The notes under the pieces: model-generated
What the model saw: only the letters and a program-made list of their open reading frames with translations
The model's database searches: none
Told to the model about the DNA's origin: nothing
In this document: one piece after another, positions 8,298-52,812 of the stretch
How positions within the stretch are numbered: position 1 is the stretch's first letter
Layout: each line of letters starts with the position of its first letter
Program-made: the position numbers and the translations under genes
Source: Siphonodentalium dalli
Taxonomy: Eukaryota; Mollusca; Scaphopoda; Gadilida; Siphonodentaliidae
Direction: 5' to 3'
NCBI GenBank assembly: GCA_032622095.1
Contig: CP136064.1
Coordinates: forward strand, 277,101,614-277,165,613
Length of the DNA: 64,000 bases

Positions 8298-9361
8298 TCA
8301 CTTGACCTCGAAATTTGACCTCGAAATTTCTAAACCGCTGACCCCGGTCGCAGGTCGATACAATATTAAGGTCGACCGTCTATAAAAATCTTTTCCTTCG
8401 TAAAATTTATTATTCATAAGCTCAGTTAGTTTGTGCGTCAGAGTGCCACATAGATCCTCAAGTGGTAAGTTGTTAAATGCCTGGGTCCATTCTGATGATT
8501 TTATTTGGTTGTTTATTGTGGAGAAATCTGCTTGTTCAAATATGTATACAGTGCGTTTGTTATGTACTATCGGTCTAGTTTTTTCACGAGTTTCAATTTT
8601 CAAGTAAACCGGGACGTGGTAGCGAACTAAGTCACAAAAGAAGGGTTCTAATGTTCCACTTTCCTTTCGTGTGCAGTTACCGTTGATCAATATAACATCT
8701 ATGAGTGTTTCTGAAAATTCAGTAAAATTTGTCGAGTCGTATATAACTTGCTGGAGGGACAAATATATTGAGATGGAGGACACTTTGGAATTTGCTGGAT
8801 TAAACTGATTTTCATTCAAATCTCCACATATGACTATTCTATGGGATGGATGGGCATTGACTACATCACCAATGTTCCCCTCGATTTCGCCCCAGCATTG
8901 TACATTTGGTGGGCGATAAAAGGTACCGACTAGAACTTTTTTTCCATTCAATAGAATTTCGATCCATACATTTTCTAAATTACATCTTTCCATGTCATTT
9001 CTACGTTTAAATGCTATATTGTTCTTGACACAGACAATAACACCGCCCCTATTGTGTCGGTATTAACTCTATCTCTACGTTCAGGTTCGTGGAAACCAGG
9101 TATCAGCAAATCGTTTTGTTCATTTTTGGTACTAAGCCAGGACTCCGTAAAACCACACACGTCAAAATTTTGGATTTCGGTGGAAAGAACATCAAGTTTC
9201 GGGAAAATACTCTGCACATTCAAGTGGAACACTGATAGTTCTCCGTCTGTTCCAGGTCCGGAGTTAGGCAAAATATCGCCAGAAATTAATACCAATTGTC
9301 TGAGCCACGTGGCCGTTGTGGCAAGATCCTTATAGGAGCGGAAGAGATCTCTCTTGGTACC
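8298..9361 (-). pseudogene. Non-LTR retrotransposon endonuclease region, frameshifted
   Basis: Minus strand. An open frame from 9361 down to 9014 gives the N-terminus of an APE-type endonuclease ('LSVFHLNVQSIFPKLD', then 'DVCGFTESWLS'), which nicks target DNA for LINE insertion. Near 9045 the frame shifts by one base and continues from about 9050 to the stop at 8298. The second part carries 'VWIEI', 'VGTFYRPP', 'ICGDLNEN' (the GDFN-type catalytic Asp/Asn) and 'LIDVIL' (the SLID-type Asp). The last catalytic motif, normally Ser-Asp-His, reads Arg-Tyr-His, so its Asp is lost. Upstream of the endonuclease lies a 2A-like peptide motif. The reverse transcriptase that should follow is missing; the copy breaks off at 8298. 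The family is CR1/L2/Rex-like. It is a dead copy by frameshift, catalytic loss and truncation. Confidence 0.85.
9254..9280 (-). other. Degenerate 2A-like motif in LINE N-terminus
   Basis: The residues G-D-I-L-P-N-S-G-P lie 5' of the endonuclease. The 2A consensus ends D-x-E-x-N-P-G-P. The Asp, Asn, Gly and Pro positions match, while the Glu is Leu and the first Pro is Ser. 2A and 2A-like sequences are known at this place in APE-type LINEs of marine invertebrates, where they cause ribosome skipping and can act as signal sequences. This copy is probably inactive. Confidence 0.5.
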
Positions 9362-40295: not shown

Positions 40296-40546
40296 TAAAC
40301 CTCGAATGAATAATTGATGATGGAACCCCACGAAACCAAAGTTATTTGCAGTATAAAAGTCCACTCATTGAGTTGTGGTACCGTCGGTACTTTGGCAACC
40401 CTGGCGTTGATAATAAGGCCAAATTTCGTCGAACAACATGTTGATAAATAACACGTTTCGGGCATTTTTATACTAGAGTTGACAGTGGTCAGCAGTATTT
40501 TTGAGCAATTAATCGATTCTGATAACTGAAGCGGCATTTCTAAAAC

Positions 40547-40580
<34 letters not shown>

Positions 40581-40618
40581 GAAATCGGATTATATGAGGA
40601 CCATCGAATCGGATTTTC
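40296..40618 (-). repeat. TTAA-family element fragment with (GTT)n
   Basis: It shares with 59157-59400 (opposite strand) and 50300-50430 the blocks ATTAATCGATTCTG, AA.TGAAG.GGCATTT, a (GTT)n tract (40548-40581) and ACCATCGAATCGGATT. It is truncated at its outer end. An open frame on the minus strand is a shared repeat product, not a gene. Confidence 0.65.
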
Positions 40619-40676
40619 ACTCTACATCCGGGTTTTTTCGTAAATAATTACTTCCGTTCATCCCCAGTGATATTGT

Positions 40677-40788
40677 TTGTGCATTTTGTATATTTCAGAT
40701 AACCATTTCACCATTATAGACCAGAGAGCTCCCGTTAAAATTAAATAGTCATGTATGGTAAATCGGTTGTGCACTTTGTATATTTCAG
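40677..40788 (+). other. Duplicated splice-acceptor sequence before the UGT exon
   Basis: A 22-bp acceptor-like block ending TTTGTATATTTCAG occurs at 40677-40698 and again at 40767-40788, exactly 90 bp apart, with one mismatch. The second directly precedes the open UGT frame. Using the first would put TAG and TAA (40759-40761) in frame, so the second is the likely functional acceptor. Confidence 0.6.
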
Positions 40789-42360
40789 AAGAATGCATGG
40801 GGGATCGTCCACGCCTTCGCCGCTTTATGTATTGGAACAGCGAGTTCTGCCAACATTTTACTGATTCTGCCATTCTACTTCAGCCCGTGCGACAATCTAG
40901 CAGACATCGGTCAACAGTTGGTAGCTTCCGGTCATAGTATTTATGTCTATGGCCCTGATTACATGGAGGTCCGACGCTGCCTGCACAATAGGAGCTTCGA
41001 GATGACACTATTCACGGGTATTCCCATAGAACAACACGATAGCCTTCAGACCTCATGGATAATATCATTGAGAAGTTATGATTTCCTGGAAGTAATAAAA
41101 ATCGCTAAACAATCCAGTGAGCTTTGGGCCGCGAAATATATCAACTTGACAAACATAGACGCTCTTCAAAAACGTTCGTTCGATGTGGCAGTTTTAATGT
41201 CGTATATTTCCGAAAGATATAACTATGTGATACCATACCGCCTTAAAATACCATATGTTTCATTATCGTGCATAAATTTTTGGACAAACACCGGGGGTTG
41301 GTTTTCTCCCTATGCTCCATCGAGCTGGATTCAAGGTGACCCTATCTGGAAAGGATATCTCCATCGTTTCGTCTATTATGTAATTTCATTGGCTGAATCC
41401 CTCGTTTCACCTCTAACCCTAGTAACAGATACACAAATACAAGTTGCCCCTGAACTATCTTTCTGGGAGCATGTTTTCTTGGTTGAGAAATCAGTCCTGC
41501 ATATCAGTGACAGTGATGTTGTTTCTGCTCATCCAATGCCAACGGCACCAAACCTAGTTCGTACTGGTGGATTTTCTGTGCGAGATAAACGAGAACTACC
41601 AGCTGACCTTGCAGTAATTTTCAATGCCGCCAAACATGGTATAATTTATGTATCATTTGGAACAATATGTGACGGAGAATCCTGTCCCATTCAACCAGAT
41701 GTTTTAACAGGTGTTTTCATGAAACTAGAACAGACTGTTGTTTGGAAAACTAAATACAACGTTGGGATGAGGAATATTCACACAGTAGATTGGGTTCCAC
41801 AAAATGACGTACTTGGACACAAGAACACGAAGTTATTCATATCACATTGTGGAAGGAACGGTCTATATGAGGCGGTGTACCACAGAGTTCCAATCATATG
41901 CATCCCCTTCTTTTTTGACCAGATCTCGGTTGCTGAACGTGTAGAACACTTCGAAATTGGCTTAAATCTAAACCCTAGTACATTAACGGAAGATACTCTC
42001 AACGGTGCCATAAAGACAATACTGGAAAACTGTAAGTTCAAAATCAACGTTCAAAGAGCTTCGGTGATATATCGCGACTTAAATCCGGACTCGGCCACGG
42101 TGCGAGCCTCCAAGTCAATCGAGCACGTCCTCAGATTCGGAGGGAAACATCTTAGACCAGGAACACTGGACATGAGTCTGTTTCAGCGACTTTATATCGA
42201 TCTCATTGCTGGAGCATGTGCCATATGTTTTGTGTTAGTTGCTGCATTATTTCTTATCATTTGCATGGCACATCGCTTTGTGTGCAAGTTCTGGAGACGT
42301 AAGACTAAGACAGAATACAGGGTCATTGGCCCAACATCCCGTGAGATAGGTGGATTTTAA
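40789..42360 (+). CDS. UDP-glycosyltransferase, large (probably last coding) exon
   Basis: The frame is open from the acceptor at 40787-40788 to TAA at 42358-42360, 523 codons, the usual length of animal UGTs (about 520-530). These ER enzymes transfer a sugar from a UDP-sugar to small lipophilic acceptors. Numbered from AAG at 40789: residues 3-21 form a signal-peptide-like hydrophobic run ending in Ala-Ser-Ser-Ala, 22-60 the N-terminal Rossmann start, and about 335-378 the UGT signature (WVPQNDVLGH, then HCGRNG, EA, VP, FFFDQ). A membrane anchor lies at about 468-495, followed by a short basic cytosolic tail. There is no ATG before the mature start; since Lys-Asn would suit a signal-peptide n-region, the Met probably sits at the end of an upstream exon. 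Oddities: the catalytic His is Pro33, the partner Asp is Met, and the signature has Cys for Gly in HGG and Arg for Gly before VP. The exon looks intact. Substrate is unknown. Confidence 0.93.
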   Translation, partial: KNAWGIVHAFAALCIGTASSANILLILPFYFSPCDNLADIGQQLVASGHSIYVYGPDYMEVRRCLHNRSFEMTLFTGIPIEQHDSLQTSWIISLRSYDFLEVIKIAKQSSELWAAKYINLTNIDALQKRSFDVAVLMSYISERYNYVIPYRLKIPYVSLSCINFWTNTGGWFSPYAPSSWIQGDPIWKGYLHRFVYYVISLAESLVSPLTLVTDTQIQVAPELSFWEHVFLVEKSVLHISDSDVVSAHPMPTAPNLVRTGGFSVRDKRELPADLAVIFNAAKHGIIYVSFGTICDGESCPIQPDVLTGVFMKLEQTVVWKTKYNVGMRNIHTVDWVPQNDVLGHKNTKLFISHCGRNGLYEAVYHRVPIICIPFFFDQISVAERVEHFEIGLNLNPSTLTEDTLNGAIKTILENCKFKINVQRASVIYRDLNPDSATVRASKSIEHVLRFGGKHLRPGTLDMSLFQRLYIDLIAGACAICFVLVAALFLIICMAHRFVCKFWRRKTKTEYRVIGPTSREIGGF

Positions 42361-52104: not shown

Positions 52105-52812
52105 TTATGTTCTTTGCGGGACTGTTGAGTTGTCCGCTGCTGTTCTATTTTGAATTTCGCATGCGTCCATCTCGTTTAGAGTGTTCCACTGAATAATTGT
52201 CCGTGGGAAGAATGAATTTGAGTATTCAGCAGAGTTTGTCACCAGTGGCTCTTACCGGTAGGACAGTGAATTATTACATTCCTGTTTTGAGACTATATTT
52301 GTGGCACTGAAATCTGCAAATTTCTTGGCTCGGATTTTTCTGCCCACCTTTTTTTGTTTAATTAAGCACTGAGTGTTTACAGCCGACACCTGCCCGTTAT
52401 CCATCTTGTGAAAGAGCTCCAGCCTCTGGTCTTTCCTTCTTTCTTCGAGTGGTCTTATCTCGCAGTCATTCATCAGTTTGGCCATGTCCTTCGATTGGTA
52501 ATTGCCGGTCATGAGCCGTACAGCTCCTCTCTGTATTCTCTCCAGGGCGTCGATGTTCTGCTGCTGGTGAGGATCCCACATGACGGCTGCGTATTCCAGC
52601 GACGATCTTACGAGTGTCTCATACGCTACGCATTTACTCTTAAATGGTGCCTTCCTAAGGTTTCTTCTGGTGAATCCGAGCGTGCTGTTAGCCTTCTTCG
52701 TGATCTTGTCTATCTGTGCCTGTGGCAACCATTTCATATCGTTTGAGAGCATGACTCCAAGATATGGTGATTGAGTGACGCTTTGTATGATCTGGTTTCT
52801 GAGCTGGTACAT
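52105..52812 (-). pseudogene. LINE reverse-transcriptase C-terminal region
   Basis: Minus strand. About 186 codons match the thumb/connector end of non-LTR RTs: 'YLGVMLSNDMKW', 'KANSTLGFTRRNL', 'LVRSSLEYAAVMWDP', 'IDALERIQRGAVR', 'PLEERRKDQRL'. An in-frame TAA (about 52249-52251) follows, but the same frame then gives the usual end 'NSFFPRTIIQWNTL' before a final stop at 52105. So one nonsense codon splits an otherwise continuous tail. The polymerase core and endonuclease are absent: a typical 5'-truncated LINE insertion. It is better preserved than the 3.5-kb relic and of a different subfamily. Confidence 0.88.

Follow-up and report, generated by a model that had tools for sequence, protein, structure and literature searches.

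Our analysis of a UGT exon in a 64,000-nucleotide stretch of Siphonodentalium dalli DNA (the window, in which positions are numbered) leads us to a joint reading, to which we give a probability of roughly 0.6: the window gene has recently been disabled or is being disabled, its clade inherited the loss of the catalytic His-Asp dyad, and the intact members of that clade are likely still transferases. Whether UGTs require the His-Asp pair is an unsettled question in the chemistry of glycosyltransferases, and one genome holding His-Asp, Pro-Asp, Pro-Glu, Pro-Met/Ile and Gln-Asn forms offers a natural series whose successive losses could be followed by assaying the enzymes one at a time. The case also carries a caution, in that an open frame without catalytic residues is not yet a pseudoenzyme.

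The protein read from the window exon matched Pfam UDPGT at 9.4e-49 over residues 24-493, covering both domains. As the original prediction had it, the frame is open over 523 codons up to its stop, the spacing from Ser32 (followed by Pro33 and Cys34) to Gly48-His49 is exact with Pro at the His place, FDV leads into Met at the Asp place (FDVAVLM, Met137), and the donor-binding signature is intact, with W, Q, H, N, E, D and Q all present (Table 1). The canonical His-Asp dyad is absent from this copy, which carries Pro33 and Met137 instead. When the exon was aligned with the UGTs of the same species, 34 full-length loci in all, these two residues lined up with the His and Asp that 9 of the 34 rows carry, upholding the description of a UGT exon without both catalytic residues. 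The His and Asp columns were placed by this alignment within the genome, the matches to solved structures having covered the C domain: among solved structures the window protein is closest to C-terminal domains of human UGT2B enzymes, the N-terminal half searched as a 15-sequence profile matched none up to E 10, and a full-length profile (11 sequences) had its best stretches in the C domain in all of the 60 matches listed out of 90.

Table 1. Features of the UGT exon and its borders, in window coordinates.
Feature	Position	Strand	Basis
UGT open frame, 523 codons; head without start codon, last 14 codons past the clade's stop	40789..42357	+	frame reading, Pfam, clade alignment
Acceptor-like intron end atatttcag adjoining the first codon, with clade-wide conservation	40780..40788	+	clade comparison
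AAG, lost start codon; ATG in 17/17 other clade loci	40789..40791	+	clade alignment
Pro33 codon CCG, catalytic His place	40885..40887	+	alignment of the genome's UGT loci
Met59, first in-frame ATG of the exon	40963..40965	+	frame reading
Met137 codon ATG, catalytic Asp place	41197..41199	+	alignment of the genome's UGT loci
Glu142, candidate replacement base	41212..41214	+	column comparison, 34 rows
Donor-binding signature WVPQND ... SHCGRNG ... FFDQ, intact	41791..41922	+	sequence, alignment
TAC at the clade's stop place; stop lost, KTKTE no longer C-terminal	42316..42318	+	clade alignment
TAA in use after a 14-residue extension (YRVIGPTSREIGGF)	42358..42360	+	frame reading, alignment

We searched the 2.23 Gb assembly (nine contigs) with Pfam UDPGT, the window protein and a canonical paralogue, which gave 42, 46 and 44 matches, respectively, and were judged to find the same loci apart from short pieces. 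Forty-one loci were taken (L001-L037 and L047-L050, L001 being the window copy), with a 78-residue piece on C1 (30 bits) left out; these locus counts are lower bounds, as genes split among small exons may have escaped the searches. The assembly also gave six matches to tyrosinase, which is not known from arthropods, and none to arthropod or to mollusc hemocyanin; both hemocyanin searches were run with no positive control, so these negatives are weak. Among the 34 full-length loci that entered the tree, nine read His-Asp, one Pro-Asp (L028), three Pro-Glu (L029, L031 and L032), 16 Pro with Met or Ile, and five Gln-Asn (L021-L025, which sit on C6, C8 and C2); His is absent from 25 of them and both residues from 24. 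The remaining seven stand outside the tree: L018 and L019, broken members of the window clade with Pro and Met; L049, also broken, which neighbours L028 on its chromosome and has Pro and Glu; L026, broken, reading Gln and Thr; L047 and L048, both Pro-Glu with one TAA each; and L050, whose N-terminal part is missing and whose Asp is kept.

We reject the view that the missing dyad is the mark of this one gene, because all 18 loci found of the window clade, which lie on one chromosome, lack both residues, with Pro throughout at the His place and nine Met and nine Ile at the Asp place. Loss of both residues is thereby established clade-wide. The Pro codon is found in 16/16 clade rows of the tree and is silently variable (CCG, CCA, CCT).

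The tree (IQ-TREE, LG+G4, 1000 ultrafast bootstraps), read unrooted, supported the window clade at 100, its joining with the Pro-Glu genes at 98, and the further addition of L028 and then of the His-Asp gene L003 at 100 each; the Gln-Asn group was likewise supported at 100, and its link to the His-Asp gene L020 reached just 62. The root was chosen within the genome's own loci and set at the His-Asp C9 set (L027, L030 and L033-L037), His-Asp being taken as ancestral because it is found in the insect and human UGTs that PMC7781194 and PMC8781437 treat. On this rooting, the Pro lineage lost His before Asp, and the Gln-Asn lineage represents a second loss of the dyad. Since L049 reads Glu beside the Asp of L028, interchange of Asp and Glu in their neighbourhood is suggested, and the dyad series suggests that loss of the base frees its partner residue. 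Pattern scans matched 18 times in viral contigs and 4 times in prokaryote contigs, with none of these matches confirmed as a relative.

Selection on the clades was estimated with a self-written codon model (GY94 type, F3x4, IQ-TREE topologies; not codeml), and gene conversion among copies may disturb both the trees and the rates. Purifying selection acts on the window clade's 13 intact members (omega 0.553, p 3.3e-7 against 1), similar to the canonical His-Asp C9 set (0.559, seven genes); omega was 0.375 for the three Pro-Glu genes and 0.196 for the five Gln-Asn genes, the lowest among the groups measured. Within these 13 members, omega was 0.431 for the N domain (p 1.2e-8) and 0.708 for the C domain with the tail (p 0.10) or 0.62 without it, and the apparent stronger constraint on the N domain was not significant (0.43 versus 0.62 without the tail, p 0.20). 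The last ~40 codons of L016, which ends in a TGA stop, are strongly unlike the clade and hold 17 of its 18 unique replacements, as if this end had been taken from another copy by gene conversion. The idea of a dyad-less UGT kept by selection fits the clade, with its 13 intact members at omega 0.55, better than the gene for which it had been proposed.

The window copy has lost both ends of the clade's reading frame. The exon begins with ATG-AAT after atttcag in 17/17 other clade loci and with AAG-AAT in the window copy, and the KTKTE end (KAKTE in L016) is followed by TAA or TGA in the 17 other loci and by TAC here; in L019, whose frame is broken close to the end, KTKTE and TAA are still present downstream. 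The lesions are ATG to AAG, TAA to TAC, and a 14-residue extension that buries the KxKTE end, so that the protein closes with REIGGF. Lys stands at both -5 and -3 in 31 of the 34 tree rows, the exceptions being the window copy, L020 and L022, and this K-x-K-x-x end we take to be an ER-retrieval signal. The predicted signal peptide held up in part: the head is signal-peptide-like, and the exon provides it with no start codon, since the first in-frame ATG is codon 59 and, ahead of 40789, the open frame extends by just nine codons, to a TAA. A protein begun at Met59 would be without the signal peptide and the His/Pro loop. From these changes we infer loss of function of the window copy, which, with its start and stop codons lost, is probably dying. 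Decay is common in the clade, as four other loci are broken (L014, L015, L018 and L019). If any member is a working pseudoenzyme, the 13 intact siblings are likelier candidates than the window gene. We consider an assembly or sequencing error very improbable as the origin of the AAG and the TAC: the call does rest on the assembled sequence, but it involves two separate single-base changes placed exactly at the two termini, and the copy has 25 unique changes.

These 25 changes comprise 19 replacements (start codon included) and 6 silent ones. With the start excluded, 18 replacements to 6 silent changes fit neutrality (neutral ratio 2.7 to 1, binomial p 1.0), whereas the pooled unique changes of the twelve other intact copies, a pool omitting the broken L014 and L015 and L016 with its converted-looking tail (L018 and L019 lie outside the alignment), were 34 to 23, p 0.035 against the neutral ratio; the ratio showed no significant difference between the window copy and the others (Fisher p 0.21). 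The chance of meeting no stop after 24 neutral changes is 0.39, and because neutral changes would leave the frame stop-free about 39% of the time, the open frame is no evidence of selection. A two-rate branch model gave omega 0.585 on the window branch versus 0.531 elsewhere in the clade, and fixing the window branch at 1 cost 1.4 log units (2dlnL 2.8), separating it neither from the clade nor from 1. That selection keeps the window copy was therefore not borne out, given a start and stop lost relative to 17 other loci, unique changes that fit neutrality, an uninformative open frame and a branch test that separates neither way. It is the loss of both ends that carries the case for decay; the rates do not.

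It could still be argued that the window copy is a functional gene, started from an upstream exon and encoding a protein whose location is changed by its new C-terminus. The sister genes lend this some substance, since L029, L031 and L032 have no ATG at or near the exon start and must use an upstream coding exon, so that a spliced start is possible for the window copy as well; moreover, its 523 codons are open with no stop or frameshift, and its branch omega is no different from that of the clade. However, the clade exon opens with an ATG-led signal-peptide-like stretch in 17/17 other loci, and in the window copy start and stop are both lost. A coding first exon was sought upstream of the window exon and in the paralogue flanks, and none was found there: a block at ~40407-40563 is common to three of five paralogue flanks and partly to a fourth, but its sole ATG (40438) is absent from some copies and is followed in frame by a stop 12 codons on. 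On balance we regard a functional window gene as unlikely, and retain the reading of a gene that is disabled or being disabled.

The ~100 bases before the exon correspond to a unit repeated many times in paralogue L042, where the unit itself carries the acceptor and first codons (ATGAATGCATGC). Positions 1-1500 of L042, upstream of the L017 gene, hold this as a ~100-base tandem unit with the acceptor and the first four codons (tttcagATGAATGCATGC), and one extra copy of the L042-type unit lies at about window 40616-40788. The tandem units of L042 thus amount to multiplied copies of the start region, placed ahead of the real exon. Also upstream of the window exon, positions 40547-40581 are made up of 11.7 TGT units.

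In our reading of the clade, the first step was the change of His to Pro. Pro at the His place is the state of human UGT1A4 (Pro40). In a second step the partner Asp, no longer needed, would have become Glu in one branch and Met or Ile in the window's branch. The intact members, which keep a signal-peptide-like start, the donor site, the anchor and the KxKxx end, would most likely still bind the UDP-sugar and the acceptor and achieve transfer by bringing both together, for nucleophiles that need no strong base, in the manner of UGT1A4 and UGT2B10 with amines, and an acidic residue at 142 may perhaps assist. Were the window copy transcribed, translation would begin at Met59 or fail to begin, and the protein would miss the ER and be without the retrieval end. 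The donor residues W335, Q338, H353, N357, D377 and Q378 are present in 20/20 Pro-lineage rows, and E361 in 34/34 rows; because the former are invariant in the Pro lineage, its binding of UDP-sugar is likely, as judged from the aligned residues. At place 357 of the donor site, Gly replaces Asn in four of the five Gln-Asn rows.

A non-catalytic role, as suggested originally, does not follow from the lost dyad, since UGTs without the His are active. UGT2B10 and UGT1A4 are without the His yet active in N-glucuronidation (PMC8781437, PMC7781194, PMC5075577), UGT2B10 having a leucine at the His place (PMC7781194) and keeping its Asp, D150 (PMC8781437). Both human enzymes resemble the clade in that the N-terminal catalytic His is replaced, but UGT2B10 keeps the Asp that the window clade has also lost, clade-wide. 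Arabidopsis UGT76C1-5 are likewise Family 1 transferases without the His, and their single-residue dyad mutants keep activity (PMC12246196); unlike the clade, they have Cys rather than Pro at the His place, and the natural enzymes keep the Asp. N-glycosylation is preferred by both UGT76C2 and UGT76C3. UGT76C2 works with Cys for His; with Ala in place of either its Cys or its Asp, it showed less N- and more O-glycosylation. Action by proximity is one option that the authors put forward (PMC12246196). The canonical UGTs of the same genome (L003, L020 and the C9 set) share with the window clade the fold family, one large exon and the donor signature, and L003 and the C9 set also the KxKxx end, but they carry His and Asp. 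No clade of UGTs without both residues was recognised in the titles and abstract openings that made up the literature surveyed.

That the window clade, and with it the Gln-Asn clade, consists of true pseudoenzymes, which lost transfer and are kept as binders of UDP-sugar or other ligands or as UGT-oligomer partners in the ER, is a serious contender that we nevertheless hold to be rather doubtful. Both residues are gone in 16/16 Pro-Met/Ile and 5/5 Gln-Asn rows, yet omega is 0.55 (13 intact members) and 0.20, respectively, and human UGT-UGT oligomers alter activity (PMC5075577). In a moth UGT, the change of His to Leu largely reduced or abolished O-transfer and N-transfer was not gained (PMC7781194), and the UGT2B10 paper also cites experimental evidence that H34 matters (PMC8781437), both of which speak for the pseudoenzyme reading. 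The Pro lineage, however, keeps its donor site whole, and the natural UGTs without the His described above are active. By analogy with these enzymes, the clade is more likely to be an unusual transferase than a dead one, with the odds near even.

Transfer might alternatively depend on a relocated base, Glu142 (His or Asp in the sister clades) having replaced the lost dyad. Column 142, five residues after the Asp place, holds Glu in the window clade, His in the Pro-Glu genes and Asp in L028, amounting to a titratable residue (E/H/D) in 20/20 Pro-lineage rows against 0/9 His-Asp and 0/5 Gln-Asn rows, the Gln-Asn clade having Ser, which does not help the idea. The same scan yielded seven more columns in which every Pro row has D/E/H and fewer than five of the nine His-Asp rows do, and one of them, column 203, is equally strict, with no D/E/H in any His-Asp or Gln-Asn row. 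As these seven pass the looser rule and 203 the strict one, residue 142 is a lead only, drawn from sequence columns. We rate a relocated base as improbable. The broader proposal that the dyad was lost twice, that the groups concerned are selected at least as strongly as the canonical one measured, and that the Pro lineage transfers through a relocated acid/base at 142, which would make it a rebuilt GT1 active site, is just as improbable. We thus continue to favour intact clade members that are likely still transferases, with the dyad loss inherited.

Elsewhere in the window there are two open frames, at 8298-8993 (-) and 52252-52812 (-); Pfam returned no match for either, and they look like what are presumably pieces of a LINE endonuclease and reverse transcriptase.
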